Shown here one piece after another: positions 9,851-36,203 of a stretch of DNA of 64,000 nucleotides; the stretch's first letter is position 1, and every line of letters begins with the position of its first letter. The notes beneath the pieces are model-generated. The model was not told the origin of the DNA, searched no databases, and saw nothing but the letters and a program-made list of their open reading frames with translations. This stretch comes from Methylobacter sp. (lineage in GTDB: Bacteria > Pseudomonadota > Gammaproteobacteria > Methylococcales > Methylomonadaceae). The translations under genes and the position numbers were made by a program. The stretch is taken from positions 1 to 64,000 of the forward strand of contig SCPZ01000080.1 of assembly GCA_004299305.1 (NCBI GenBank), given 5' to 3'.

Positions 9851-11209
9851 ATGACTCAAAAACTTTATATTCAAACCAACGGTTGCCAAATGAACGAGTA
9901 TGATTCCGATAAAATGCGGGATGTACTTAACGCCTCACATGGATTTGAATTGATTGACGACCCAAAACAAGCTGACGTTCTGTTGCTGAATACTTGCTCG
10001 ATACGCGAAAAAGCGCAGGAAAAAGTATTTTCGGCGTTGGGTAAATGGCGCAAGATTAAAGACAAACGCCCCGACGTGATTATCGGCGTTGGCGGCTGCG
10101 TCGCCAGCCAAGAGGGTGCTGCTATTCAAAAACGGGCGCCGTTTGTGGATATAGTGTTCGGGCCGCAAACTCTGCATCGCTTGCCTCAGCTATTGGATCA
10201 AGCGCGTAGCCAGCAAAAGCCGGTGGTCGATGTTTCCTTTCCTGAAATAGAAAAATTTGATGCGCTGCCTGAACCCAGAGCCGAAGGTCCGAAAGCCTTT
10301 GTTTCGGTGATGGAAGGTTGCAGCAAGTATTGTACATTCTGCGTGGTGCCTTATACCCGCGGCGAGGAAATCAGTCGTCCTCTGGATGATGTGATTGCCG
10401 AAATTAGCTCGTTAGCCAAACAAGGCGTAAGGGAAATCAACCTGCTAGGTCAAAACGTTAATGCCTATCGCGGTGAAATGGACGATGGCGACATAGCCGA
10501 TTTTGCTTTGCTGTTGCATTATGTGGCGGCTGTGGAGGGCATAGACCGCATTCGTTTTACCACCTCGCACCCAATGGAATTTACTGATGAGCTGATTGAG
10601 GCCTTCGCCGAAATTCCGCAACTGGTCGATCACCTGCATTTGCCGGTGCAAAGCGGCAGCGACCATATCTTGAAAATGATGAAGCGCGGCCATGCGCGTG
10701 CCGACTACATTGAAATCATCCGCAAGTTGCGTGCAGTGCGGCCCAATATTTACCTGTCATCGGACTTTATTATCGGCTTTCCCGGTGAAACCGATGCCGA
10801 GTTTGAAGAGACCATGTCGTTCATCGAAGAAATCGGTTTCGATTTATCCTTCAGTTTTGTTTACAGTCAGCGTCCCGGAACGCCTGCGGCCGATTTACCG
10901 GACGATGTGCCTGCGGAAGTTAAAAAGCAGCGTTTGGAACGTTTTCAAAATCGCATTAATGAAATGACGGCGGCGATTTCCGAGAGCATGATCGGCACCG
11001 TGCAAACGGTGTTGGTTGAAGGCCAATCCAAAAAGAATCCGTTGCAAATGCAGGGCAGAACCGAGAATAACCGGGTCGTTAACTTTATCGGGCACCCCCG
11101 CTTGGCCGGACAGTTTGTCGATGTGCTGATTGCCGAGGCCCTGCCCAATTCTTTACGAGGTCGGATGATCGATATTTCCCAGCCATTAAATAGAATGGAA
11201 CACGGATGA
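9851..11209 (+). CDS. miaB: tRNA-2-methylthio-N6-dimethylallyladenosine synthase MiaB
   Basis: This 452-residue radical SAM methylthiotransferase adds the 2-methylthio group to i6A37 of tRNA. The N-terminal MTTase domain has its three cluster cysteines at C12 (TNGCQMN), C49 (NTCSIRE) and C83 (GGCVAS). The radical SAM CxxxCxxC triad is C157/C161/C164 in [21 protein letters not shown] domain occupies the last 70 or so residues. It heads the conserved order miaB-ybeZ-ybeY-ybeX. Oddly, the last codons (RMEHG and the TGA) lie inside a palindromic intergenic repeat starting near 11190, so the repeat supplies the C-terminus and stop. Confidence 0.97.
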
Positions 11210-11338
11210 CACGGATTAGACTGATAAGCACTGATTTAAAAGTGCATAACAAATTTGGTTTCTGTTTTTTAAAAATCCGCGTGAATCCGCTCAATCCGCG
11301 TCGCCTAAAGCGCCTACTGTTGGCATCCGTGTTCTATT
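11190..11338. repeat. Palindromic repeat (ACACGGATGACAC family), copy overlapping miaB end
   Basis: The left end carries GGAACACGGATGACACGGATT and the right end carries GGCATCCGTGTTCTATTA, the reverse complement of the left type. The interior repeats GGATT/AATCC words and includes the module GTCGCCTAAAGCGCCTACT, also seen near 23880 and 30480. Related copies are at 28545-28660 and 30381-30520. It overlaps the final 20 bases of miaB and ends just upstream of ybeZ. Confidence 0.75.
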
Positions 11339-19916: not shown

Positions 19917-20633
19917 TCAGGGCTTTTTAAATTTCACAACCTTGTTCAATGGACTCAAATTGATTTCATCAATCACTATCTGAGTAGGTGAATTAAGCAC
20001 GTAGGACAGGGCTTCGGCGACATCTTCCGGATCGATAAAATTGCTTTGGTCATCGCCCGGCTCAAAAGGCAGTTGCTCAAAAAATGCGGTTTTGACCATG
20101 CCGGGATTAATCAGGCATACCCGCACATTGCTTTTGGCGCACTCTTCGCGCAAGGCTTGGGTAAAACCCCGTAGCGCAAACTTGGAGGCGCAATACATTG
20201 CACCTTTACGACTGCCTTTTAATGCCGCTTCCGAACCGATAAAAATCAAATCGCCATGATTTTTGCGCTTTAAAGCGGGCAGCAGCGCCTTAACTAAAAA
20301 AGCCTGGCTGGTAAAGTTTAGTGTCATCAGACTTTCAATTTGCGCATAGGAAAACTCTTCCACCGAGCCGAACTGGCCCCGCCCGGCACAAAAAACCACC
20401 GCATCGATTTCAGGAAAGGCTTGTTCCAATTCGCGGATTTTTTGCGGGATGTCGCTTAAGCGGCTTAAATCCAGTTGCACGGGGCTGAAATTATCCATCT
20501 GCCGGATAAACTTGCCGCTATCGCGGGATATGCCGATTACATGATGGCCCTGTCGCAATAAATTCCTGGCAATGGCGCGGCCTATGCCGGAACTGGCGCC
20601 GGTTACCAGAATAGTCCGTTTTATAGTGTGCAT
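19917..20633 (-). CDS. Short-chain dehydrogenase/reductase
   Basis: This 238-residue classical SDR oxidoreductase has the nucleotide-binding motif TGASSGIG at 11-18, catalytic S134, and YxxxK with Y147/K151 (YCASK). The substrate is unknown. Its 5' end overlaps by 13 bases the 3' end of the upstream radical SAM gene on the same strand, so the two are co-transcribed and translationally linked. Confidence 0.92.
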   Translation of the reverse strand: MHTIKRTILVTGASSGIGRAIARNLLRQGHHVIGISRDSGKFIRQMDNFSPVQLDLSRLSDIPQKIRELEQAFPEIDAVVFCAGRGQFGSVEEFSYAQIESLMTLNFTSQAFLVKALLPALKRKNHGDLIFIGSEAALKGSRKGAMYCASKFALRGFTQALREECAKSNVRVCLINPGMVKTAFFEQLPFEPGDDQSNFIDPEDVAEALSYVLNSPTQIVIDEINLSPLNKVVKFKKP

Positions 20634-21625
20634 GGGAAAAATTTGTCGGTTGGAATGTAAGATAAGATTTGCTCGGTGCAGTAGTGCATCATCTCCTGCT
20701 CCAATTCCTGTGTATAAGAAACCATGCCTTGCTGACTAACCTTCTGATTGATCAGGGGGCCCGCAAAGAGTTTTTCTTCAGGATAAAGTTTATGCACTTT
20801 TTTAAAAAAATTCTCCGGCAACCTGAAGACGCCAAGACTGACCGAATGCAGTCGGTTTAAATCGATACGGGAAAAAACCTGTTCGAACAATTGCCGGTAT
20901 TGCTGTTGATAGCCGGATTGATAAATCAGCGGATCGAAGCGCAGCCCGATTTGCCAGCCTTGTTCCTGTAATTTGCACAACGCCTCCAGGCGACGCTCAA
21001 TCGAGGGGGCTTTAGCTTCGACTTTTTCGGCAATTTTGTCTGGCGACAGGCTGAACGCCACAATACAGCGGGGCAAGGGCTCGCGATTTAACAGAGTCCT
21101 GACTTGGGTGCTTTTGGTTCTTAATTCTAGCCAAGCATTGGGTAGCGTTGCAAAAAACGGCAAAAACTGCTCGGCAAAACCGGTTACTGGTTCCAAAGCC
21201 AAGCTGTCGCAATCGTAGCCGGAAAAAAAATGCAGGTTTTCATCAGGCGATTCGGCACACAACTGCCGGATGTCTTGCTGGAAATCCTCGTAATTGACAA
21301 ACAGCACATAATTGGCCGATTGGTACATGCCCTGTAAAAAACAGTAACGGCAATCGTACAGGCAATTGAGCATGTGCGAAAAATAATAATTCCTTGCGGC
21401 TCCGATGCCGTAACCTAAGGGCGCGGGTAGGCTAAAATTTTTATATTTTTCCGCCAGTATCAGGGCGGGCTGTTGTTTTTGCAGGCGGAAGTTTTGCGCT
21501 TTGGGGTTAAATACTTCGCCGTAACGGCCGCAGGTTATTTTCCTGGCTTGCGGGAATCGCGTCACAATGCCCTGAACACGCGGGTGTTTCAGTATGGCTT
21601 CTTCTATATAAATGGTTTCAATCAT
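20621..21625 (-). CDS. Spore-photoproduct-lyase-like radical SAM protein
   Basis: This 334-residue protein is related to SplB/spore photoproduct lyase. The radical SAM cluster motif CLYDCRYC supplies C88/C92/C95, followed by the family's FLQGMYQSANYVLFVNYEDF region. C139 (GYDCDSL) lies roughly where B. subtilis SPL has its hydrogen-donating C141; alignment would be needed to prove equivalence. Homologues in non-sporeformers are usually annotated as DNA repair photolyase-like, and their true substrate is not settled. It is coupled to a downstream SDR gene by a 13-base overlap. The ATG at 21625 is a normal start. Confidence 0.85.
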   Translation of the reverse strand: MIETIYIEEAILKHPRVQGIVTRFPQARKITCGRYGEVFNPKAQNFRLQKQQPALILAEKYKNFSLPAPLGYGIGAARNYYFSHMLNCLYDCRYCFLQGMYQSANYVLFVNYEDFQQDIRQLCAESPDENLHFFSGYDCDSLALEPVTGFAEQFLPFFATLPNAWLELRTKSTQVRTLLNREPLPRCIVAFSLSPDKIAEKVEAKAPSIERRLEALCKLQEQGWQIGLRFDPLIYQSGYQQQYRQLFEQVFSRIDLNRLHSVSLGVFRLPENFFKKVHKLYPEEKLFAGPLINQKVSQQGMVSYTQELEQEMMHYCTEQILSYIPTDKFFPCTL

Positions 21626-24008: not shown

Positions 24009-25004
24009 ATGCAAACACATACTTTTTCACTCAGTATTTTTTTAGCCTGTTGCCTTCTTCTATGTAGCAGCCAATCTGCTTTTGCCAAAAAGATGTACCG
24101 CTGGGTAGATGAGCACGGGGAAACTATTTACTCCGACCAAGTGCCGCCGGAACATTCTCAATACCGCCGGGAATCGCTCAATGAAAAAGGCCAGGTTCTT
24201 GAAGTCACGGAACAGGCAAAAACAAAAGAACAGCAAGCGTTGGATGAGCGCTTGAATGCACTGAAAAAAGCCCAGGAAAAAATCATTGCTCAGCAAGCGG
24301 CTCACGACAAAGTATTGCTCAGCACCTTTCGTAATCTGGATGACATGCAAGCAAGCCTTTATGCAAAAATGCAATCCTTGGATGCGCAGCGAAATGTGGC
24401 TCAGGGCAATTTAAAACGCGTAGAAAACCAACTGGAAATGCAACAAAAGAAAGCTGCGGAACTCGAGCGTAACGGTAAAAAAGTTCCAAAAAATTTGCTG
24501 GATGAAATTAAGCAAACAGAAGCGCAGATACAAGCGGCTTATGCTGAAATAACTAAACATATCGAAAAGAAGAATCAGGTGAAGGCCGACTTTGAAGCCG
24601 ATATTGAACGCTTTAAATTTTTAACCCAGGAAAATACAGATCCGTCAAAAGCGTCTGAAAAAACGGTGGAAAATAAAGTTATCGATGAGATTGGCCTGTA
24701 TGCCTGTAAAACGGATGCAATCTGCATAAAGGCTTGGACAAGCGCACATGACTTCATTAAAACCTATGCGACAACACCCATCGATACCGATACCGACAAA
24801 TTGATTATGGGGCGGGCGCCTGCAAACGACAGCGATCTGAGCTTGTCGGTTTCAAAAATAGAGGGTGATAACAAAAAACAGCAGCTTTTTCTCGATATTC
24901 GCTGCCGGGAGTCATCGTTGGGCGCTGAACTCTGCGCCAGCCAGAAAGTCCGAGATATAAGGTCTGCATTCAAGCCGTTTATTGACGCTGCGCTGGCTAA
25001 ATAA
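24009..25004 (+). CDS. DUF4124-domain protein with coiled coil
   Basis: This 331-residue exported protein has a signal peptide (residues 1-26, ending SAFA). A DUF4124 module (about 27-65, KKMYRWVDEHGETIYSDQVPP) is typical of periplasmic proteins of gammaproteobacteria. A long Lys/Gln/Glu-rich coiled coil (about 70-205) follows, then a C-terminal domain with four cysteines (CKTDAIC and CRES..LC). Function unknown. It appears to be a single gene between the nested repeat and the PIN toxin module. Confidence 0.87.
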   Translation: MQTHTFSLSIFLACCLLLCSSQSAFAKKMYRWVDEHGETIYSDQVPPEHSQYRRESLNEKGQVLEVTEQAKTKEQQALDERLNALKKAQEKIIAQQAAHDKVLLSTFRNLDDMQASLYAKMQSLDAQRNVAQGNLKRVENQLEMQQKKAAELERNGKKVPKNLLDEIKQTEAQIQAAYAEITKHIEKKNQVKADFEADIERFKFLTQENTDPSKASEKTVENKVIDEIGLYACKTDAICIKAWTSAHDFIKTYATTPIDTDTDKLIMGRAPANDSDLSLSVSKIEGDNKKQQLFLDIRCRESSLGAELCASQKVRDIRSAFKPFIDAALAK

Positions 25005-25065
25005 CACACCTAGGGTAGGCAGAAAAGCGTTGCATGGACATTACCGTTATAAAATGGAAATAATT

Positions 25066-25284
25066 ATGTTGAGATATCAAGTTACTGAAAACACAGTGAA
25101 TTTAACCTTTTCTAAAGAATATTTAAATTCACGGGAATTATTGCGACTCATTGAAATATTGCGCATCAAAGAGTTGCTCTCGAAAAGCCAAATGACCATA
25201 GACGATGCTATAGCGCTTGATGATGAATTAAAAGAAAATTGGTGGCATAAAAACCAGGCCCGGTTTTTAGCAAAAATCCAATGA
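25066..25284 (+). CDS. Probable antitoxin partner of PIN protein
   Basis: This 72-residue protein follows a GGA purine tract eight bases upstream of the ATG at 25066. The N-terminal half (TVNLTFSKEYLNSRELLRLIE) could be a small DNA-binding or dimerising segment. The acidic, aromatic C-terminus (LDDELKENWWHKNQARFL) would suit toxin binding. Its stop overlaps the PIN gene start (ATGA), the standard antitoxin-toxin order. I do not recognise a specific antitoxin family, so the call is by context. Confidence 0.7.
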   Translation: MLRYQVTENTVNLTFSKEYLNSRELLRLIEILRIKELLSKSQMTIDDAIALDDELKENWWHKNQARFLAKIQ

Positions 25285-25730
25285 AGCCAATTATTGTCGA
25301 CACCAATATCGTATTTTCGGCATTGGTGAATAAAAATTCACCCATTGCCTCGTTTTTGTTAGAGCCCCAGCAGGCTTTGTTAACGCCAAAGTTTGGTTTT
25401 GTTGAACTTTTTAAACATAAAGAAAAAATCTGCAAAATTAGCAAGCACTCGCATGATGAAATTTTGGAAGTTCTTTATGAGCTTATCAGGCATATTGATT
25501 TTTTTGATGAGAATACAATTTCCGTTGACGCGCTACAAAAGGCTTGGGAGCTTGTAAAAGATGTTGATCCAAAAGATATGCTATTCGTTGCGCTTACTAT
25601 TGAAATGAATGGATTGCTCTGGACAGGCGATACTAAGTTGCGCTTAAGTCTTGAGGCAAAAGGATTTAATAGTTTTTTTGATGATTTTTATGCAAAATCA
25701 ACCTGCTCGCCGCGAGAGGATTTGTCTTAA
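25281..25730 (+). CDS. PIN-domain ribonuclease toxin
   Basis: This 149-residue PIN-fold protein has the conserved acidic residues in order: D8 in VDTNIVFSAL, E42 in FVELFKHKE, D96/D100 in VDPKDMLFVAL and D118 in WTGDTKL. PIN proteins of this size are usually Mg2+-dependent RNases of type II toxin-antitoxin modules. It is translationally coupled to the small upstream gene. The start ATG is fixed by the ATGA overlap. The target RNA is unknown. Confidence 0.85.
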   Translation: MKPIIVDTNIVFSALVNKNSPIASFLLEPQQALLTPKFGFVELFKHKEKICKISKHSHDEILEVLYELIRHIDFFDENTISVDALQKAWELVKDVDPKDMLFVALTIEMNGLLWTGDTKLRLSLEAKGFNSFFDDFYAKSTCSPREDLS

Positions 25731-25831
25731 TTTTTCTTCGTCTCCTTCATGGTAAAAATTAACTTTTTTCATTTGTTAAAAAGTTGTTTTTACAGCTTAT
25801 TTACCAAACCCATGCCGGTTTCAATATAACT

Positions 25832-27298
25832 ATGCTGGAAACCTCTGAAGATACGCTGGATCCGTCCGATTGGAATGCCTTTCGCCTGCAAGGCCACCGA
25901 ATGCTGGACGACATGATCGACTATCTTGAACACCAGCGCGACCGACCGGTCTGGCAGCCTATGTCCGAGACAGTGCGGCATTCATTTCGACAACCCTTGG
26001 ATGACGGACAGCATGATCTTGAACAAGCATATACCGTATTCATCAAAGACATACTCCCTTACGCCTTAGGCAATGTTCATCCCGGTTTTATGGGCTGGGT
26101 TCATGGCGGGGGAACCCCCGTCGGGATGCTGGCGGAAATGTTGGCAGCCGGGCTTAACGCCAATCTTGGCGGACGCGATCAGGCGCCCATCGAAATCGAG
26201 CGGCAGGTGCTACAGTGGGTTCGGGAATTGTTTGATTTTCCGGAAACCGCCGGTGGGCTGTTTGTAAACGGAACCTCAATGGCCAACCTGCTTGGCGTGT
26301 TGGTTGCGCGCACCGCCCAATTAGGCGACGCTGTACGCCATAAGGGCATCGCTACGCAGCAGTTGATTGCCTATACTTCGGCAGGGGCTCATATCAGCAT
26401 TAGCCAGGCCATGGATATTGCGGGCTTGGGTACTGATGCTTTACGCATGATAGCGGTTAATGAACAGCACCAAATGGATGTGCTCGCGCTTGAATATGCC
26501 ATTGCCGAGGACAAAAAAGCAGGCATGACGCCGTTTTTTATTGCCGGAACGGTGGGGACCGTCGGCGTCGGCGCTATCGATAATCTTCAGGCTATTGCCG
26601 AGCTGTGTCAGCGCGAAAACATCTGGTTTCATGTTGACGGCGCTTACGGTGCGCTGGCTATGTTGGCCCCCGATATTGCACCGCGCCTGCAAGGCATAGC
26701 GCGGGCCGATTCCATTGCCTTTGATTTCCATAAATGGGGGCAAGTTCCCTATGATGCAGGATTCATCTTAGTCCGGGACGGTGAGTTGCAGCAACGCACA
26801 TTTGCCTCGCCCGCCGCCTACCTGAAACGGGAATCCCGCGGCATGGCGGCAGGTTCTCCGTGGCCGTGCGACTTCGGTCCTGATCTTTCACGCGGTTTCA
26901 GGGCGCTTAAAACATGGTTCACTATAAAAGTTTACGGCGCGGAAAAATTAGGCAAGGTTATTTCAAATACCTGCGCATTAGCCCAGCACATGAAACGGCG
27001 TATCGAAGCCGAACCGCGACTGGAACTGCTTGCGCCGGTGGCGCTGAATATCGTCTGCTTTCGCTATCGTAGCGCCGATGCCAACCGGCTCAATGCAGAT
27101 CTGGTAGTTGCGCTGCAAGAATCCGGCATTGCCGCACCGTCAACGACTACGCTCAACGGGCAATTAGCTATTCGAGCGGCTATCGTCAATCACCGCACCA
27201 CGGTAAGCGACATTGACGCCTTGATCGATGCTACGCTTGAATTGGGCGATAATGCCGCAAAAAACTACAATTTCAGGAACAGTAATGCAATTCAATGA
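25832..27298 (+). CDS. PLP-dependent group II decarboxylase
   Basis: This 488-residue fold-type I PLP enzyme is of the aromatic-L-amino-acid/tyrosine decarboxylase type. Features are HPGFMGWVHGGGTP near 83, FVNGTSMANL near 145, the cofactor aspartate D269 in HVDGAYG, and the PLP lysine K301 in DFHKWGQVPYDAG. The N-terminal region DWNAFRLQGHRMLDDMIDYL is the usual start of this family. ATG 25832 is chosen over an upstream TTG although no clear SD is present. It overlaps the ATP-grasp gene by 14 bases. Substrate specificity (Tyr, Trp, DOPA, Glu or other) cannot be read from the sequence. Confidence 0.92.
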   Translation: MLETSEDTLDPSDWNAFRLQGHRMLDDMIDYLEHQRDRPVWQPMSETVRHSFRQPLDDGQHDLEQAYTVFIKDILPYALGNVHPGFMGWVHGGGTPVGMLAEMLAAGLNANLGGRDQAPIEIERQVLQWVRELFDFPETAGGLFVNGTSMANLLGVLVARTAQLGDAVRHKGIATQQLIAYTSAGAHISISQAMDIAGLGTDALRMIAVNEQHQMDVLALEYAIAEDKKAGMTPFFIAGTVGTVGVGAIDNLQAIAELCQRENIWFHVDGAYGALAMLAPDIAPRLQGIARADSIAFDFHKWGQVPYDAGFILVRDGELQQRTFASPAAYLKRESRGMAAGSPWPCDFGPDLSRGFRALKTWFTIKVYGAEKLGKVISNTCALAQHMKRRIEAEPRLELLAPVALNIVCFRYRSADANRLNADLVVALQESGIAAPSTTTLNGQLAIRAAIVNHRTTVSDIDALIDATLELGDNAAKNYNFRNSNAIQ

Positions 27299-28496
27299 AC
27301 ATTCCGAACCGTTGATCGGCTTAGCGAAGCTGATGCGGATGGCCTACTCCGGCTGCGATCTTGCACCGTTAGGCACTCAATTAATCGAGCGCGCCGAGAC
27401 CGAGACCGGCGGTCATGCCCTAATGGATTTATCCACGGTTTTGCAACTTCGAGGCAATCGCGATTTAGCCCTAAGCATGCAAGCCCAGGCCATAGAAACC
27501 CAGCAAATATACTCCCCGCCCACAACCGCCGGACCCGTTAATATCCGGCTGCTTGCGATTATGGGGGAGGGCGATTTGATGGCGAATACGCCCTTGGAAT
27601 TTTTGCTCGAAAACTCCGATGTCGCGCTGGATATAGTCTATGTGACTCAGGGCTTGCCTCTGCCGGACAATCTCCCTGATCACGATGTGCTATTCGTTGC
27701 GATTGCCCAATCCGACCGGAATATGCCGCTGTTAAAACAAATCGATGCCGCTGTTGCATCATGGCCGCGCCCGGTATTAAACAGGCCTGAGCGTATCGCA
27801 TTAATGTCGCGCAACGAGGCTTGTCTATTATTAAAATCCGCTCCGGGAGTTGAGATGCCGAGCACGGTGCGTGTGGCCCGGAAGGATCTGCAACAAGTCG
27901 CCGATAAAGAGCAGCCGCTTAGCGGCATTCTTGAGGACGGCGAATTCCCGATTATTGTTCGTCCGGTCGATTCGCACGCTGGAAAAGATTTGGACAAAAT
28001 AGAGGATTCGGACGCGCTGCTTAATTATCTGCAAGACATGCCTAATAATGAGTTTTATCTGTCTCGGTTTATTGATTACCGAGGGCCGGATGGCTTGTTC
28101 AGGAAATATCGCATCGTATTGATCGACGGTAGCCCCTTTGTTTGCCATGTCGGCATATCCGAACATTGGATGATCCATTACCTGAATGCCGGTATGGCCG
28201 AAAGCGCCGAAAAACGTGCCGAAGAAGAACGTTTTATGCGCGATTTCGACAGCGGCTTTGCCTGCAAACATGCCGAAGCCTTCCGCGCGATCAACGAACG
28301 GGTTGGGCTGGACTATCTGGGCATTGATTGCGGCGAGACCGCCGACGGCAAATTGCTGATTTTCGAGGTTGACAGCTGCATGATTATCCATGCTATCGAT
28401 CCGGTCGATATTTTTCCTTATAAACAACCGCAGATGAACAAGGTATTTGCCGCCTTTCGCCGGATGTTGCAGGCTGCCATGCAAGGCTTAATTTAA
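27285..28496 (+). CDS. ATP-grasp domain protein (RimK-like ligase)
   Basis: This 403-residue protein has a helical N-terminal region (about 1-75) with TPR-like character (LSTVLQLRGNRDLALSMQAQAI). A Rossmann-like preATP-grasp part (80-170) and an ATP-grasp fold (about 180-395) follow. Recognisable elements are FPIIVRPVDSHAGKDL, FIDYRGPDGLFRKYRIV, GLDYLGIDCGETADGKLLIFEVD and the ADP-forming-ligase type acidic end. It overlaps the upstream decarboxylase by 14 bases, with AGGA six bases before its ATG, so coupled expression is expected. It could ligate an amine (perhaps the decarboxylase product) to a carboxylate. The reaction is inference; no substrate motif is diagnostic. Confidence 0.82.
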   Translation: MQFNEHSEPLIGLAKLMRMAYSGCDLAPLGTQLIERAETETGGHALMDLSTVLQLRGNRDLALSMQAQAIETQQIYSPPTTAGPVNIRLLAIMGEGDLMANTPLEFLLENSDVALDIVYVTQGLPLPDNLPDHDVLFVAIAQSDRNMPLLKQIDAAVASWPRPVLNRPERIALMSRNEACLLLKSAPGVEMPSTVRVARKDLQQVADKEQPLSGILEDGEFPIIVRPVDSHAGKDLDKIEDSDALLNYLQDMPNNEFYLSRFIDYRGPDGLFRKYRIVLIDGSPFVCHVGISEHWMIHYLNAGMAESAEKRAEEERFMRDFDSGFACKHAEAFRAINERVGLDYLGIDCGETADGKLLIFEVDSCMIIHAIDPVDIFPYKQPQMNKVFAAFRRMLQAAMQGLI

Positions 28497-28498
28497 TG

Positions 28499-28660
28499 TA
28501 AGGCAACTCGCAATAAATAAAATACGCAACTTCAACAGCTAAAAAATAGCACACGGATGACACTGATTGGACAGATTTAAACGGATTTTTAACAATTTTA
28601 ATGACTTAGAGTTTTATCAGTGATTATCTGTCTAATCCGTGTCATCCGTGTTCCATTATA
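28499..28660. repeat. Palindromic repeat (ACACGGATGACAC family) with left TIR
   Basis: GCACACGGATGACACTGATT near 28548 and GTGTCATCCGTGTTCCATTA ending near 28659 are the inverted arms. The outer left sequence 28499-28525 (GGCAACTCGCAATAAATAAA) is the reverse complement of 30533-30559, on the far side of the next gene. It lies in the gap 28497-28873, which has no other ORF. Confidence 0.75.
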
Positions 28661-28674
28661 AATTAACCATACTG

Positions 28675-28795
28675 AGTTACCTACATCCATGTAGGCAAAG
28701 CCAGCTTTGGACTCCTATAGCACATTTTCTGGAGTCCAAAGCTGGCTTTGGACAGTAAGAATCGGCTTTGCGCTTAACAAGGGGCGAGTAGTTAC
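28675..28795. repeat. GTAACTACTC-family palindromic element, inverted copy
   Basis: Read on the minus strand it runs GTAACTACTCGCCCC, GCAAAGCCGATTCTTACTGTC, then the central palindrome CCAAAGCCAGCTTTGG. The last two blocks occur in the same order at 44750-44891. The left end is merged with a CCTACATCCATGTAGGC hairpin word also found near 23673 and 60080. Boundaries on the left are approximate. Confidence 0.7.
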
Positions 28796-28873
28796 GTTTA
28801 ATCAATATAATAAATTGGGTTATCTGCCTAATCCGTGTTCCATTTTTCTAACTTCCGAGTCGTTACAAATATC

Positions 28874-30319
28874 GTGCAAAACTCATCCAAAGCACTAGGC
28901 GGCCTACCGTCTACCGAGCAACTCCTGGTTGCAGGCGGCGATGCCCGCATCGCACTCGATCCGCTCAGTGGTTTGAACAAATACGCTTGCCAGCCGTTTC
29001 CCGATCCTCAATTGTTGGCATTTGCTTCCTCTACGGCATCCGTTATTTCCACGGAGGGGTTTGCTGTCGCAAATCGGCTACGCCGGAAATTATTAGAAGC
29101 CGTCAGCACAGCGCCATATTCAGCTGTTTATGCGTTCGAAATGCAGCGGATTCGCCGGGAGTGGCTACAGTTATGCGAGTTATCCGGCAGCGCCGGGTTA
29201 GAACTGGTATTCGCGCCATCGGGTACCGATATTCATGCCATTGCAGCCCAATATATAGGCAGTGAGGTATCGACACCGGCGCTGGTCATCATGGTGGAAG
29301 CCAATGAAACCGGAAGCGGCGTGGTCTCGGCGATCGACAATAATGCAGTCGAAATCGTGCAAGCGCCGATCCGGCTGAACAATGGGGAGCCCAGGCCGTT
29401 AGCGGCAATCAATGCCGAAGTGGAAGCCTTGGTCAATAAAGCCGTTGTATCAGGTCGGCGCGTCCTGTTGATTCTTGTCGACCAATCCAAAACCGGCTTA
29501 ATCGCGCCGAGTCCGGCTTGCGTTATCGCGTTACAGCGTCGTTTTCCCGATAATATCGACGTGTTGGTCGATGCCTGCCAGTTCCGTATTGCCATGCCGA
29601 CTTTGCGCGCCTATCTGGAGCAGGGCTTTATGGTCGGGTTGACCGGGTCGAAATTCCTTGGCGCGCCGTCTTTTTCAGCCGCATTATTGCTGCCGACAAC
29701 AGTAGCGGAGCGTTTCCGGCAACAGGCATTTTCTAGCGGATTGCTGTCCGGCTCGCCACAGGATCATGTCGCCAATTTTGGACTGCTGCTGCGTTGTGAA
29801 GTGGCCCTGGAAGAACTGCGTAGCTTTCGCGCCGTACCGCAAGCCTCTGTTATAGACTTCCTGCAAGCCTTTGCGCAAGCGATCCGGCAACGCCTGACAT
29901 CCGATCCTCACTTTGAACCGTTACCTGTACCCCAACTCGACCGCCGCCCGTTAATAGAGGCAAATAGCTGGGATCATCTCCAGACTCTCTTTCCTTTTCT
30001 GCTTTATGATGCTCAGCCTGGAGGGCGGATGCCGCTAAATCGCGAACAGACTCGGCATGTGTATCGGCAATTGCCGATAACGATTGACTATTCCGGCAGC
30101 GATATTGCCATGCTACGCTGTCAACTTGGACAGCCCGTTGCCTGTGGCGTCCGTAACGGTATAGCGGTCAGCGCCTTGCGTTTATGTGTTGGCTCACGGC
30201 TGATTGTCGAAGCAACAGCGAGCAATGATAAAGGCAATGCAATCATTAAAGATGCGCTGACGGTTTTGGATAAAACGGTATGGTTAATCCGGCAAGCTAA
30301 AACATGCGAGGCGTTGTAA
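28874..30319 (+). CDS. PLP-dependent class-V-like aminotransferase or lyase
   Basis: This protein of about 481 residues has fold-type I PLP features. They are FAPSGTDIHAIA near 113-124 (phosphate-binding SGT), D233 in VLVDACQF (pyridine-nitrogen aspartate), and K260 in GLTGSKFLGAP (Schiff-base lysine). This is the layout of class V aminotransferases and cysteine desulfurase relatives. The start is uncertain: an in-frame GTG at 28835 falls inside the ACACGGAT-family repeat arm, so the GTG at 28874 is preferred, without a strong SD. It is separated from the decarboxylase/ATP-grasp pair by repeat elements but lies on the same strand. Reaction unknown. Confidence 0.82.
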   Translation: MQNSSKALGGLPSTEQLLVAGGDARIALDPLSGLNKYACQPFPDPQLLAFASSTASVISTEGFAVANRLRRKLLEAVSTAPYSAVYAFEMQRIRREWLQLCELSGSAGLELVFAPSGTDIHAIAAQYIGSEVSTPALVIMVEANETGSGVVSAIDNNAVEIVQAPIRLNNGEPRPLAAINAEVEALVNKAVVSGRRVLLILVDQSKTGLIAPSPACVIALQRRFPDNIDVLVDACQFRIAMPTLRAYLEQGFMVGLTGSKFLGAPSFSAALLLPTTVAERFRQQAFSSGLLSGSPQDHVANFGLLLRCEVALEELRSFRAVPQASVIDFLQAFAQAIRQRLTSDPHFEPLPVPQLDRRPLIEANSWDHLQTLFPFLLYDAQPGGRMPLNREQTRHVYRQLPITIDYSGSDIAMLRCQLGQPVACGVRNGIAVSALRLCVGSRLIVEATASNDKGNAIIKDALTVLDKTVWLIRQAKTCEAL

Positions 30320-30559
30320 GGTAACGCGCAGAAAATAAACTACCGAGTCCTAATAATCTTGACAACTCCGCAGCTAGAAAAATGGAACACGGATGACACA
30401 GATAAGACGGATTTACACGGATTTACACGGATTTTTTAGAATATCCGCGCTTTTAATCAGTGATTATCCGTTCTATCTGTGTCGCCTAGAGGCGCCTACT
30501 TTTGGCATCCGTGTTCTATGGTATTTAACACGGTATTTTATTTATTGCGAGTTGCCTAA
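30318..30559. repeat. MITE-like element with 30-bp TIRs and nested palindromic core
   Basis: The left terminus GTAAGGTAACGCGCAGAAAA and the right terminus, whose reverse complement begins GTTAGGCAACTCGCAATAAA, match over roughly 24 of 30 bases. Nested inside is the ACACGGATGACAC palindrome (30381-30520). The element begins at the stop codon of the PLP gene, and no ORF of its own is present in 30320-30615. Confidence 0.75.
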
Positions 30560-31421: not shown

Positions 31422-34400
31422 TTAAACGACCGCAAAATCAGCATAGCTTAGGGCTAGATTTGTCCCTAATACTGCGATTTGCACGGCATCCCTTGCACCA
31501 TTACCATCTGCGTCATACAGCAGTGCGCCGCTGGCAGGGTTATAGATAATATAATCATTGGCGTCGTGCGCAGCGGCAGCTTTTACAAATACGCCGGGAT
31601 TTAACAGGCCTGTTGTCTTGAGTTTGGTAAAAATGCCGCTTCCTAGCTGAATCGTGTCATCGGCTACAGTAAAGTCAGTGATGCTGTCGATGTTTGCAGT
31701 CGGTGGACTGCTGAATCGAAACAGGTCTGAGCCTGTGCCGCCTGTCAATTTATCGTTCCCTGCGCCGCCGTTCAGTATATCGTTGCCCGTTCCACCGCGT
31801 AGTGTGTCATGGCCCGAACCGCCAGCCAGGACATTATTAGCCGTGTTGCCAAGCAGGGTATTGTCTAAATCGTTACCGGCGCCGTTAATCTCCGCCGTTC
31901 CGGTTAAGCTAAGATTTTCTACATTCGGCCCTAATGTGTAACTCACTGAACTATTAACGCTATCGATTTCTGTCATCAAGGTTGACGTTTCAGTCACGCT
32001 GTCCCCGGTATTATCGACAACATAAACATCATTGCCTAAACCGCCAATAAGCTTGTCAGCGCCGATGCCGCCGTTGAGTATGTTAGCCGCTGTATTGCCG
32101 GTTAAAACATTATTGAGTGTGTTGCCCGTACCATTTATAGCGGCTGATCCGCTTAGGCTAAGATTTTCTATATTCGCTGCCAATGCGTAACTCACTGAGC
32201 TGTTAACGCGGTCAATTTCAGTTGCCAAGCTTGAGGTTTCTGTCACGACATCAGCCTTGTTATCCACGATATAGGTATCATTGCCTAAACCCCCTAGCAT
32301 GGTATCTGCACCGGCTAAACCGTTGATAATGTCATTACCGGCTAGGCCATTAAATTTGTCATTAGCCGGGCCGCCGGTCAAGGTATCGTTGCCGAAGGAC
32401 TCGGTTATGCCGTTTTGTGCAATATTAATAGCCAGTGTTTTACTGCCGGTTAGTGCCCCATCCGATACGCTAACGACAAAGTTGGCGCTTGTATTAAAGG
32501 TTAATGCTTCAATAGCGGTATCGTTTGCCGTAAAGCTGTAAGCTCCGCTAGCCTTAGTCATCATTAACACGCCATAGGCGCTACTCTTGGCGATTGTGCC
32601 GTCGCCATTGTCGGTACCGCCATTAATGTCGTAAGTTAAGACGTCGCCGTCAATATCGTCGGCGACTAGCGCCCCTTTGATAGTGGTAAAGCTGTCGTTA
32701 AAAATAGTGTCGGTATAGTGAATAGCGTTCGGCGTTGTGAGAATCGGTGCGTCATTGACTGCGCTGACATTCAAGGTGATGGTGTTAGCAGGCGTGCTGT
32801 CTAAATTGCCGTCATTAACGCTGAAGTTAAAGTCGGCATAATCCACGCCGTTGGCATTAACGGCGGGCGTGAAGGTTAAGTCGGCAATCGAAGCGGCGGT
32901 AATAACTTGGTCTAAAGTAACTTCTGCGCGATTCAGCTTTAATGATCCGGCAGCGGGTAAACGGGTGATTTTGATGCCCGACATAATATTGCCGTCGACA
33001 TCCGCATAACCAAAGTCAGTCGATGAAAAGCTATAGGTGCTGTCTTCATCAACGCTGACGGTTTTATTTGTCCCGGTGGGCGCATCGTTGACTGCGCTGA
33101 CCTTCAAGGTGATAGCGTTAGCCGACACGCTGTCCAAACTGCCGTCATTCACGCTGAAATTAAACTCGGCATAATCCGACCCGTTGGCATTTACGGCGGG
33201 TGTGAAGTTTAAGTCTGGAATCGAATCGGCGGCAATCGCTTGCTCTAAGATCACCTCCGTATCGCCCAGTTTTAATGATCCGGCAGCGGGTAAGCGGGTG
33301 ATTTTGATGCTCGCCATAACATTGCCGTCGACATCCGCATAGCCAAAATCAGCCGACGAGAAGCTGTAGCTATTGTCTTCATTGATGCTAATCGTTTTAT
33401 TCGTCCCGGTGGGCGCATCATTAACGGCTGTGTCGCTAACCGTTACTTGAATAGCGGTGCTGGATTCCAAAGCATTGTTATCTTTCGCCACAACGGTAAA
33501 AGCATTGAGTATGCCGTTGGCATTGGTTTCAGGCGTCCAATAAGCATTATGAGTGGCGTCAATGGCGGCATTAGTATCGGCAGTCCAGCCAGTGGCTAAT
33601 TCCGCCGAACTGCCGATTTTTAAGACGCCGCTGCTGACGGCTTTAACTACAAAGCTATCCACTGTACCGTCAATATCCGCTTCGTTACCTTGAGCTTGTA
33701 AATCGGCAAAGGTGAGCGTCACTTCGCTGTCTTCATTGCTTACGGCAACGGGAGAGGTAAAGGTAGTCAGGCTTGGGGCGTTATTGATTGCCGTAACCGC
33801 GATTGTCGCTTGAATTGCGTTGATCGATTCTAAACCGCTATTATTTTTAACCACTGTGGTAAAAGCGTCTAAGATGCCGTTGTCATGGACAGCAGGCGTC
33901 CAATAAGCGTTGCGTGTCGCATCTACGGTGTTGTTAATTATCGCATCCCAAGGCGTTGCCGTTTTCGCTGAGGCGCCGATTTTTAAGCTGCCGTTGCGGA
34001 CAGCGGTGATCACAAAGGCGGTAACGGTATCGTCAACATCCGCTTCGTTACCCTGCGCTTGTAAATCGGCAAAGGTCACTGTCACTTCACTATCTTCATT
34101 GCCGACGGCAACGGCTGAACTAAAGGCCGTTAAGGTTGGAACATCGGTTACTGCGGTAACAGCCACCGTTGCTTGAATTGCGTTAATCGACTCCAAGCCG
34201 CCATTGTCTTTAGCCGCTACGGTAAAGGCGTTCAAAATGCCGTTGGCGTTGGCGGCGGGCGTCCAATAGGCGTTGCGTGTGGCATCTACGCTGTTGTTAA
34301 TTACCGCATCCCAAGGCGTTGCCGTTTCCGCTGAGGCGCCGATTTTTAAGCTGCCGCTGCTGACGGTTTTAATCACAAAGGCGCTAACGGCGCCGTCAAC

Positions 34401-36203
34401 ATCCGTCTCATTGCCTTGGGCTTGTAAATCGGCAAAAGTCACCGTTATTTCGCTGTCTTCATTGCCGACGGCGACGGCCGAACTGAAGGCGCTTAAGCTT
34501 GGGGCATCATTGCTGCCGGAAATGCTGACGGTTAACGCCGTTGCAGCGCTGCTTGCACCGTGGCTATCGATAATCGTGTAGCTGAAGGTATCGGTAAGCA
34601 CTTGTCCGGTTGACAAGGCATTGATTGCGGATTTGGCATTGTCCAGCATATAGATGTAGTTGCCATTGGCTGACAAGGTCAGGCTACCGTAGAGACCCGC
34701 AACCGCTACGCCGACATTGCCTAACTGATCGTTTACCTTTTGTACGTTTTTGGTTTCGCCCAGCCCTAAAGAACTATCGGCATCCGTGTCATTAGTCAAT
34801 ACATTGCCTGCAGCAATACTGTCACCGGCAACGCCGGCGCCCGCTTCAGTAACGGGATCACCGGTATTATTGTCGAGCACAGCTACAGGCGCATCATTTA
34901 CCGCTGCCTCTGTTGTCACGCTGACATTGTTAAACATTAAGTTTTCAATGTTACTAAGGCTATCGGTGCCGTTAATGCCGCTTAAGTCGGTTATTGTTGC
35001 GCTGACCGAGTTGCCGGTTATAGTGCAAGTCGACCAAGCGCCGCAAACAGCCGTGTCTGTGCCGACGCTGCCGTCGATAGTGTCATTACCGCCGCCGCCG
35101 CTTAAAACGTTGTTGCCGCTGTTGCCGACCAGGCTATCGTTACCGATGCCGCCGCTTGCCTTTTCAATCGTAGTATTAAAAGCAATCGCAATATTATTAT
35201 TTAACCCGCAAACCGATGAATAGCTTCCAGGCGTGAGATTGATAGTCTGGTTTCCGCTCCATCCTGAACAATTCAGCTCATCGCTGCCGCCCGCATCCCA
35301 AATAGTAAAAATCGGCAGGCTATTGCTGGAAAAATCAAAAATAGACTTTTCAGGATCGCCGCTTGCAAAATTGTTGCTGTAACCATAAATATTGTCGCCT
35401 GTTCGGGTAGTGGTATCGGCGCCATACAAGGACTGAATAGCGGCAATATCGTAAACCATCGGGGTTTGGGGATATTTATAGTTGGTGGTGGAATCCTGGG
35501 TCCAGGCATTGGCTGTCGTATCGTAGCCGCCGAAATACGACATGATGGTATTTTGCCGACTATCCTGGGCAAACTCCGCATTCGCATCATAAGTAATGGT
35601 AACGCCGGATGCGGCGTCGTATGCGCCGGGATGCGAAAGTCCTAAAGCATGGCCAATCTCATGTAACAGGGTTGTGAATCCATAACCGCCGTTTATCATT
35701 CCCGAATCGGCATTGGTAGCCCAATTTGACGATAACCAGATTTGATCGGCGGCTATATTCTTGGGTACTGTGTTATGCGTTAAGCTATTCGTATAGCTGC
35801 CATTGTCGGTAGTGGCGCTGGAGTAATTCAGTGTGATATTCGCACCCGCTCCGCCGCTTTCAACCAAGCTGCCGGGTATCAGTTCATCCCATATCTGGAA
35901 AGAGAGTCGCGCCGTTGCCACTTGCAGAGCGGTCATAGCGACTAAACCATTACCTTCTGATGATGCAGGTCGGCCTAAGGCGGTAAAGTTAGTCGGGTTG
36001 CTCGTGTTAATGCCAAAGCTGATAGGGGTAGCAGTCCATAAGCGTTGCGTCGTATCGCCATTACCCCAGGACGTTGTTAATTGAGTGATAATCTGGTCGA
36101 TGGTGTAGCTGGGTTTAAGCGCGGCAATAGCTTGTTTATCAATTGAAATGTAATCAGTGAGTTTAATGGGGCGTCTCCCAATACAGTGGTAAGCGTCGGA
36201 TAA
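31422..36203 (-). CDS. Giant M10 metalloprotease with cadherin-like and RTX repeats; 5' end unclear
   Basis: This is a predicted secreted serralysin-type zinc protease. The first in-frame ATG is at 35936 (1504 residues), but protease-like coding continues upstream in frame (LTDYISIDKQAIAALKPSY, then WGNGDTTQRLW) to about 36165, with no ATG, GTG or TTG before an in-frame TAA at 36204-36206. Numbering from 35936, the zinc site HEIGHALGLSH is at 92-102, with a Met-turn IMSYFGGYD. A VCBS-type domain follows, then three 121-residue repeats, two 111-residue repeats, RTX GGxGxDxL nonapeptides and a C-terminal type I secretion region. No HlyB/D/TolC genes are in the window. A one-base indel at the GGGG run 36168-36171 would join it to another frame. 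It may be a recent pseudogene. Confidence 0.8.
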   Translation of the reverse strand, partial: LSDAYHCIGRRPIKLTDYISIDKQAIAALKPSYTIDQIITQLTTSWGNGDTTQRLWTATPISFGINTSNPTNFTALGRPASSEGNGLVAMTALQVATARLSFQIWDELIPGSLVESGGAGANITLNYSSATTDNGSYTNSLTHNTVPKNIAADQIWLSSNWATNADSGMINGGYGFTTLLHEIGHALGLSHPGAYDAASGVTITYDANAEFAQDSRQNTIMSYFGGYDTTANAWTQDSTTNYKYPQTPMVYDIAAIQSLYGADTTTRTGDNIYGYSNNFASGDPEKSIFDFSSNSLPIFTIWDAGGSDELNCSGWSGNQTINLTPGSYSSVCGLNNNIAIAFNTTIEKASGGIGNDSLVGNSGNNVLSGGGGNDTIDGSVGTDTAVCGAWSTCTITGNSVSATITDLSGINGTDSLSNIENLMFNNVSVTTEAAVNDAPVAVLDNNTGDPVTEAGAGVAGDSIAAGNVLTNDTDADSSLGLGETKNVQKVNDQLGNVGVAVAGLYGSLTLSANGNYIYMLDNAKSAINALSTGQVLTDTFSYTIIDSHGASSAATALTVSISGSNDAPSLSAFSSAVAVGNEDSEITVTFADLQAQGNETDVDGAVSAFVIKTVSSGSLKIGASAETATPWDAVINNSVDATRNAYWTPAANANGILNAFTVAAKDNGGLESINAIQATVAVTAVTDVPTLTAFSSAVAVGNEDSEVTVTFADLQAQGNEADVDDTVTAFVITAVRNGSLKIGASAKTATPWDAIINNTVDATRNAYWTPAVHDNGILDAFTTVVKNNSGLESINAIQATIAVTAINNAPSLTTFTSPVAVSNEDSEVTLTFADLQAQGNEADIDGTVDSFVVKAVSSGVLKIGSSAELATGWTADTNAAIDATHNAYWTPETNANGILNAFTVVAKDNNALESSTAIQVTVSDTAVNDAPTGTNKTISINEDNSYSFSSADFGYADVDGNVMASIKITRLPAAGSLKLGDTEVILEQAIAADSIPDLNFTPAVNANGSDYAEFNFSVNDGSLDSVSANAITLKVSAVNDAPTGTNKTVSVDEDSTYSFSSTDFGYADVDGNIMSGIKITRLPAAGSLKLNRAEVTLDQVITAASIADLTFTPAVNANGVDYADFNFSVNDGNLDSTPANTITLNVSAVNDAPILTTPNAIHYTDTIFNDSFTTIKGALVADDIDGDVLTYDINGGTDNGDGTIAKSSAYGVLMMTKASGAYSFTANDTAIEALTFNTSANFVVSVSDGALTGSKTLAINIAQNGITESFGNDTLTGGPANDKFNGLAGNDIINGLAGADTMLGGLGNDTYIVDNKADVVTETSSLATEIDRVNSSVSYALAANIENLSLSGSAAINGTGNTLNNVLTGNTAANILNGGIGADKLIGGLGNDVYVVDNTGDSVTETSTLMTEIDSVNSSVSYTLGPNVENLSLTGTAEINGAGNDLDNTLLGNTANNVLAGGSGHDTLRGGTGNDILNGGAGNDKLTGGTGSDLFRFSSPPTANIDSITDFTVADDTIQLGSGIFTKLKTTGLLNPGVFVKAAAAHDANDYIIYNPASGALLYDADGNGARDAVQIAVLGTNLALSYADFAVV
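32748..33413 (-). repeat. Two 333-bp in-frame repeats in the M10 gene
   Basis: Words such as GCGCTGAC.TTCAAGGTGAT recur exactly 333 bp apart (32761 and 33094), corresponding to two 111-residue cadherin-like units beginning NDAPTGTNKT. Confidence 0.85.
33425..34513 (-). repeat. Three 363-bp in-frame repeats in the M10 gene
   Basis: The word GTCCAATA(A/G)GC begins at 33535, 33898 and 34261, a constant 363-bp period. These encode three 121-residue units, each with EDSE.T.TFADLQAQGNE and AYWTP motifs. Boundaries are approximate. Confidence 0.85.

Follow-up and report, generated by a model that had tools for sequence, protein, structure and literature searches.

A conserved decarboxylase, ATP-grasp ligase, and PLP enzyme cassette in Methylobacter and its association with flagellar genes

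Introduction

A 64,000-nucleotide stretch of Methylobacter sp. (assembly GCA_004299305.1, contig SCPZ01000080.1, positions 1 to 64,000; the whole stretch is referred to as the window) encodes three enzymes in tandem on the same strand, which raises the question of what they might make together. The genes, designated DEC, ATPG, and PLP3 in that order, encode a group II pyridoxal phosphate (PLP) decarboxylase, an ATP-grasp ligase with tetratricopeptide repeats (TPR), and a fold-type-I PLP enzyme. A sequence-only reading of this locus proposed a small-molecule pathway in which amine formation is followed by ATP-driven ligation and PLP chemistry, and it named a methylofuran-type cofactor of one-carbon (C1) metabolism as one candidate product. 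We find that the three genes are conserved as a unit and that, at many other loci, this unit lies with flagellar or flagellin genes. Our preferred interpretation, to which we assign a probability of roughly one half, is that the cassette is a co-inherited part of the flagellar system that makes an amide-linked decoration and attaches it to flagellin or its glycan.

How filaments assemble, how cells swim, and how hosts and phages recognize them all depend on flagellin decorations, most known examples of which are sugars. A cassette that combines a decarboxylase with a TPR ATP-grasp ligase and a PLP enzyme absent from Pfam, and that is widespread and linked to filament genes in several lineages of proteobacteria, predicts unrecognized chemistry. 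We found no description of the cassette in the open-access literature; an earlier mention in the amidoligase survey of Iyer et al. 2009 is possible.

The cassette encodes a decarboxylase, a ligase, and a class-V-like PLP enzyme

The features of the cassette are as follows.

25832..27298, + strand: DEC, group II PLP decarboxylase, 488 amino acids (aa); start ATG 25832 (a longer open reading frame, 25784-27298, runs from TTG 25784)
26636..26734, + strand: PLP site of DEC, D269 (26636-26638) to K301 (26732-26734), by residue invariance
27285..28496, + strand: ATPG, TPR plus RimK/LysX-like ATP-grasp ligase, 403 aa; conserved start ATG 27285 (open reading frame 27228-28496)
27321..27500, + strand: N-terminal two-hairpin TPR region of ATPG, aa 13-72; model helices 13-21, 27-39, 44-55, and 59-72
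28551..28651, no strand: long, imperfect inverted repeat (hairpin) between ATPG and PLP3; DNA fold z -7.2
28874..30319, + strand: PLP3, class-V-like fold-type-I PLP enzyme; the open reading frame opens at GTG 28835 (28835-30319), and orthologues start close to the position that corresponds to GTG 28874

DEC matches the group II PLP decarboxylase family (PF00282, E = 1.6e-70) and carries its PLP lysine and aspartate. These residues, D269 and K301, had been picked out from the sequence and are invariant in 36/36 aligned orthologues; across 35 aligned orthologues, identity to the window protein is 57-86%. The closest solved structure is 4obu (231 bits), in which the lysine of the HKW motif is the alignment partner of K301. 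DEC shares its sequence family and PLP residues with the aromatic, diaminobutyrate, and lysine decarboxylases of group II (4obu, AADC, DfoJ) and differs from 4obu in a GGR segment, GGS in the latter, whose arginine (R115) is invariant in 36/36 orthologues.

The conserved start of ATPG gives the 14-base overlap with DEC that the sequence-only reading had described. Pfam contains no match for the window protein, and RimK-family models in NCBIfam match it weakly (the best, TIGR00768, scores 27 bits, under its cut-off of 143.4). A profile of 45 orthologues matches TPR proteins (TPR chains, including those of OGT) and one RimK/LysX-type chain, and in the AlphaFold model (pLDDT 94.3) four helices at the N terminus (residues 13-72) precede an ATP-grasp body. 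The predicted fold is that of an ATP-grasp enzyme, and its nearest folds include LysX/ArgX, RimK, and Ddl, which are carboxylate-amine ligases; known members of the RimK and LysX-ArgX groups add amino acids to a protein acceptor. While ATPG has the fold of these two groups, it differs from them in its added TPR domain, in its low identity (15-19% in the LysX/ArgX/RimK rows), and in being usually encoded with a decarboxylase. Extra ATPG paralogues occur as a single copy in G004 (L049 8269-9447) and as a tandem pair in G475 (L186 7821-10188).

The window's PLP3 protein has no match in Pfam or NCBIfam, a search of solved structures with the PLP3 profile returned no meaningful match, and Aminotran_5 (PF00266) is reached at an E value of 0.01 or better by only 3 of 52 members, the window protein not among them. 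Its predicted model supports fold type I, with a class V fold and a PLP-site motif, and aligns with NifS and with alanine:glyoxylate or aminoethylphosphonate transaminases at 7-14% identity; the structural alignment to the class V/NifS fold begins at residue 41 or later. The aspartate and lysine identified in the sequence-only reading as D233 and K260 are D246 and K273 when counted from 28835, and both are invariant in 52/52 aligned members. A motif around R449 resembles that of the carboxylate-binding arginine of class V enzymes. One pattern scan of viral contigs found no PLP3.

In the window, PLP3 is only loosely coupled to ATPG, with about 340 bases between them, hairpin repeat included; in relatives the intergenic distance is anywhere between a few bases (L056, L058) and several hundred. 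An arm of the repeat recurs twice more in the window (11201-11217 and 30388-30404), and the hairpin is probably an interspersed palindromic element that lies outside the pathway and separates ATPG from PLP3 here.

DEC, ATPG, and PLP3 are conserved as a unit

Among 23 genomes of the genus, ATPG is present in 14, and 13 of those 14 also encode PLP3. Twelve of these 13 keep an unbroken DEC-ATPG-PLP3 order, and in G016 it is split over contig ends; G013 keeps ATPG with no adjoining DEC or PLP3, and in G015 (L036) DEC and ATPG are fused as one 915-aa frame. Genes resembling ffh, rpsP, rimM, and trmD (named by eye) adjoin the cassette site in 11 of the 14 genomes, the window and G001 share another site, and the contig of G014 is too short to judge. 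ATPG was not found in 14 other genera of the family (one genome each). Elsewhere in the order, it occurs in G060 at 58% identity, and G046 has only a weak match.

In a scan of named-species genomes based on the PLP3 alignment, 80 of 99 matching loci were returned, and these 80 include Methylobacter, Methylovulum, Gallionella, Sideroxydans, Sulfuricella, Sterolibacterium, Undibacterium, Janthinobacterium, Leptothrix, Glaciimonas, Caulobacteraceae, and others. DEC and ATPG both lie near PLP3 at 64 of the 80 loci and at 51 of those 58 whose upstream sequence spans 3.5 kb or more. Pairwise distances of the three proteins correlate with r = 0.87-0.88 (22 loci), a value reached by 0 of 2,000 permutations. 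In genomes checked individually, mostly exceptions to this arrangement, ATPG relatives are present in 12/12 (at only 30-31% identity in G444 and G458, and partly as contig-end fragments in G459) and DEC in 6/9, with no match in G060, G444, or G461; G452 and G467 encode the DEC-ATPG pair together, apart from PLP3. The three genes are one conserved unit, and the co-conservation on which the sequence-only reading had staked its pathway held.

The core of this unit is DEC-ATPG, and PLP3 is often absent. In a class sample of 369 genomes, the PLP3 profile finds two, the window's genome and G388, while 20 genomes have an ATPG match. Ten of these matches are strong (E < 1e-70), with DEC adjacent in eight; we took the ten weaker ones (E from 1e-4 to 1e-38) for remote ATP-grasp proteins and set them aside. 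In the phylum sample (398 genomes), ATPG occurs in 28, and the 26 neighborhoods viewed include DEC in 20, PLP3 in 16, a SerC paralogue in 1, and none of these in 5, several of the stretches being short (3 to 7 kb) such that missing neighbors there are no proof of absence. The cassette is probably horizontally mobile.

This distribution does not follow C1 metabolism and so bears on the proposal that a tyrosine decarboxylase and an ATP-grasp ligase here build a methylofuran-type cofactor. The window genome belongs to a methanotroph relative, and MfnA-type decarboxylases and ATP-grasp ligases make methylofuran (PMC8141765). DEC is only a distant match to the NCBIfam MfnA model, at 91.3 bits against a cut-off of 299.4. 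Besides the absence of ATPG from 14/14 sampled genomes of the family's other genera, ATPG and PLP3 occur in Gallionella, Undibacterium, and Leptothrix, which are not known as methylotrophs, and PLP3 also in Glaciimonas and others, and the flagellar neighborhoods described below also speak against such a role. We reject this candidate on its distribution and the MfnA cut-off and consider it highly improbable; methylofuran genes elsewhere in the window genome were not searched for.

The cassette exchanges partners

At four loci (L207, L208, L216, and L225; the sources are three genomes, G308, G067, and G778, and one Paraburkholderia plasmid), a paralogue of the phosphoserine aminotransferase SerC directly follows ATPG; the absence of DEC at these loci was judged within the fetched stretch alone. 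Phosphoserine aminotransferase is also a class V enzyme. Among phosphoserine aminotransferase models (NF009112, also called PRK12462, and NF003764), all four paralogues score best with NF009112, two of them over its cut-off. Each of two such genomes checked holds a second, better-scoring SerC, and this main SerC, unlike the paralogues, does not score best with NF009112. The SerC alignment has no profile similarity to ATPG.

Other contexts vary further. In G060, which has no DEC match, PLP3 lies apart from ATPG and is followed by a LysA-like fold-III decarboxylase. An alphaproteobacterial metagenome-assembled genome (L092) encodes a longer TPR-ATP-grasp protein and PLP3 adjoining a TPR glycosyltransferase-like gene, and a Rhizobium tumorigenes plasmid has the order ATPG, hypothetical gene, decarboxylase. 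These partner swaps suggest that the enzyme in third position provides an amino acid or converts one, and that the cassette can do without DEC.

Two further sets of relatives were observed. No DEC or PLP3 lies in the fetched stretch around the ATPG relatives at L183 (8536-9789) and L239-L243, nor any SerC, for which the profile scan covered L239-L243. PLP3 homologues annotated as hypothetical are encoded immediately after giant nonribosomal peptide synthetase or polyketide synthase genes, with a phosphopantetheinyl transferase near, on Sinorhizobium and Rhizobium plasmids (L213 8968-10503 and L214 8971-10467); judged from its surroundings, this homologue may be a PLP enzyme of a rhizobial natural-product cluster, with no role assigned.

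The cassette is associated with flagellar genes

Among the 50 PLP3 loci of 14 kb or more, 25 contain one or more of 22 flagellar families and 22 contain at least two, against 0 of 40 control stretches (19 kb each, 11 genomes) scanned with the same hidden Markov models (HMMs); the HMMs were trained on the very loci scored, several Methylobacter loci share one site, and control positions were chosen by hand, which makes the p value indicative only. FlhF, FlhG, FliA, FliI, MotA, and MotB are left out of the 22 families because their HMMs also match Ffh, other ATPases, or other sigma factors. The neighbors include flagellin, FlaG, FliD, FliS, FliT, FliK, the FlhB C-terminal domain, YcgR, and MotB, and elsewhere flgMN, flgA-flgBCD, or fliEFGHI; nine representatives were confirmed by Pfam.

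In both the window's class and another class of the phylum, the cassette directly abuts filament genes (G388, G291, G547, and G060) or a flagellin array (G502). It is divergent from and adjoins fliC-flaG-fliD-fliS-fliT in G388 and continues the order fliC-flaG-fliD-fliS-DEC-ATPG-PLP3 in G547. The G502 array of flagellins of about 760 to 790 aa ends at most about 1 kb from DEC, and a giant 1,391-aa flagellin is encoded directly downstream of the ATPG orthologue of G060 (L047 10999-15174). In Methylobacter tundripaludum SV96, whose cassette is at L056, fliS, fliD, and a flagellin gene follow PLP3 at a distance of about 6-9 kb downstream. Flagellar genes also lie in the fetched stretch of 4 of the 10 strong-ATPG genomes of the class sample (G291, G308, G388, and G067) and in 8 of the 26 phylum-sample neighborhoods, seven of these eight from one genus, g384 (another class, 6 to 8 Mb), all seven genomes of which have them nearby. 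The cassette genes often lie with flagellar or flagellin genes, though not at the window locus or at the other 25 long loci.

We also asked which genomes encode a flagellin-family (PF00669) gene over the cut-off; the model also matches the hook protein FlgL. Such a gene is present in 50/50 PLP3 genomes tested and in 200/369 class genomes (Fisher 6.7e-13); the 50 were drawn from the 80 named loci, leaving out all but one Methylobacter-titled locus and many short contigs. It is likewise present in 10/10 strong-ATPG genomes of the class sample (Fisher 0.002 against the other 359) and in 25 of the 26 phylum-sample genomes with ATPG, the sole miss being a 68%-complete genome. By this measure, in which some PF00669 matches may be FlgL and the ten remote ATPG matches are set aside, the cassette is confined to flagellated genomes. 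Within the genus, the correlation is uninformative (22/23 genomes carry a PF00669 gene), and flagellin open-frame lengths in cassette-plus and cassette-minus genomes revealed no pattern by eye.

Proposed function and alternatives

Together, these observations are compatible with a role for the cassette in flagellin modification. A class-V-type PLP enzyme (PLP3, or the SerC paralogue in other lineages) would make or convert an amino acid, and DEC would decarboxylate it to an amine. The TPR part of ATPG may dock the acceptor, and ATPG, with ATP, would then join the amine, or the amino acid itself where DEC is missing, to a carboxylate of flagellin or of a precursor of its glycan. The families of the enzymes, their joint conservation, and the association with flagellar genes are shown here, and the identities of the steps follow from the families; we infer the order of the steps, the amide product, the acceptor, and the substrate. 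Amine formation, ATP-driven ligation, and PLP chemistry remain the best reading of the enzymes, and the conserved unit also stands from the original small-molecule idea; methylofuran does not, and the flagellar link, the frequent absence of PLP3, and the pairing with SerC were not foreseen.

ATP-grasp genes in flagellin-modification clusters are already known. One lies in the type B cluster of Clostridioides difficile (PMC5207246), and in Shewanella oneidensis deletion of each of the five genes sfmABCDE shifts flagellin mass (PMC3765264). Like the cassette, sfmABCDE is a small operon whose products are predicted to be cytoplasmic enzymes, among them an ATP-grasp ligase (SfmE). As described in PMC3765264, it differs in having no PLP decarboxylase or PLP3 and in encoding a partly PseI-like protein, a thiamine pyrophosphate enzyme, a reductase, a methyltransferase, and the ATP-grasp protein; SfmE and ATPG are set side by side here by description.

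These precedents also fit a narrower form that overlaps with our interpretation, in which the enzymes serve solely to make the amide group carried by a sugar of the flagellin glycan; ATPG would then not act on protein at all, and its TPR would dock a glycosyltransferase. At L095, L097, L099, and L118, the cassette is flanked by TPR glycosyltransferases together with filament genes (fliC, flaG, fliD, fliS, and fliT), and at L129 PLP3 is followed by two genes resembling GDP-mannose dehydratase and GDP-fucose synthase (by eye). A TPR-glycosyltransferase HMM matches only 12 of the 80 loci, some of these through other TPR proteins, which counts mildly against this form, as many neighbors are unannotated. 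We regard it as possible but somewhat doubtful. The opposite form, in which the TPR docks flagellin and ATPG joins the decarboxylated amino acid directly to a flagellin carboxylate, would amount to sugar-free amine-capping across Alpha-, Beta-, and Gammaproteobacteria, with PLP3 and the SerC paralogue interchangeable as amino-acid suppliers; we consider it rather unlikely.

Several observations weigh against flagellar decoration as such. The window cassette is not near flagellar genes; its upstream neighbor is a PIN-domain gene and its downstream neighbor a Uma2 gene, and the fliC-flaG-fliD-fliT-fliS locus of the window genome sits on a different contig; half of the long loci (25/50) contain no flagellar gene. 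PF00669 genes occur in 22/23 genus genomes and ATPG in only 14/23, and because 8 of the 22 PF00669-positive genomes lack ATPG, the cassette is accessory and dispensable for the flagellum. In 8 of the 50 PLP3 genomes, the only PF00669 matches are weaker than 1e-30 and may be FlgL, and at least one of the weaker-ATPG genomes set aside, G088, has no PF00669 gene. Of the 10 class-sample genomes whose ATPG match is strong, 8 give no hit with the PLP3 profile. PLP3 has no profile similarity to SerC, and SerC was rejected as its sequence relative. A scan with a sigma-28 consensus of the 400 bases (317 in one case) upstream of DEC, in the window and 55 loci, gave no consistent promoter: 7 of 56 regions reach p <= 0.02 (about 1 expected), at L078, L104, L105, L108, L118, L124, and L128, and the window and the other 48 do not.

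PLP3 relatives come after giant nonribosomal peptide synthetase or polyketide synthase genes on 2 of 3 rhizobial plasmids viewed, which indicates that PLP3 chemistry is also used outside a flagellar setting. This placement and the long loci free of flagellar neighbors would suit an undecorated flagellum and a cassette that makes a diffusible small molecule (a signal, osmolyte, or natural product) co-regulated with motility, as would the AMP-binding protein that follows PLP3 at L103 and the sensor kinase at L124. However, no common exporter was found by eye in the multi-locus neighbor clusters, many single neighbors being unannotated; the only transporter-like clusters are an ATP-binding cassette (ABC) ATPase (c63, 4 loci) and a P-type-ATPase-like protein (c113, 3 loci), and the most widespread neighbor families are flagellar or belong to the Methylobacter ffh-trmD site. 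A diffusible product thus seems unlikely to us, and decoration of flagellin or its glycan remains our preferred interpretation.

Other genes in the window

Directly upstream of the cassette (24982-25730, + strand), a small gene precedes the PIN_2-domain gene with a 4-base overlap, and the two are a possible toxin-antitoxin pair. On the - strand, 31422-35936 encodes a 1,504-aa protein with M10 peptidase, bacterial cadherin/Ig-like, and RTX calcium-binding repeats, and 20621-21625 encodes a spore photoproduct lyase-like protein (PF20903) adjoining a short-chain dehydrogenase-like gene.

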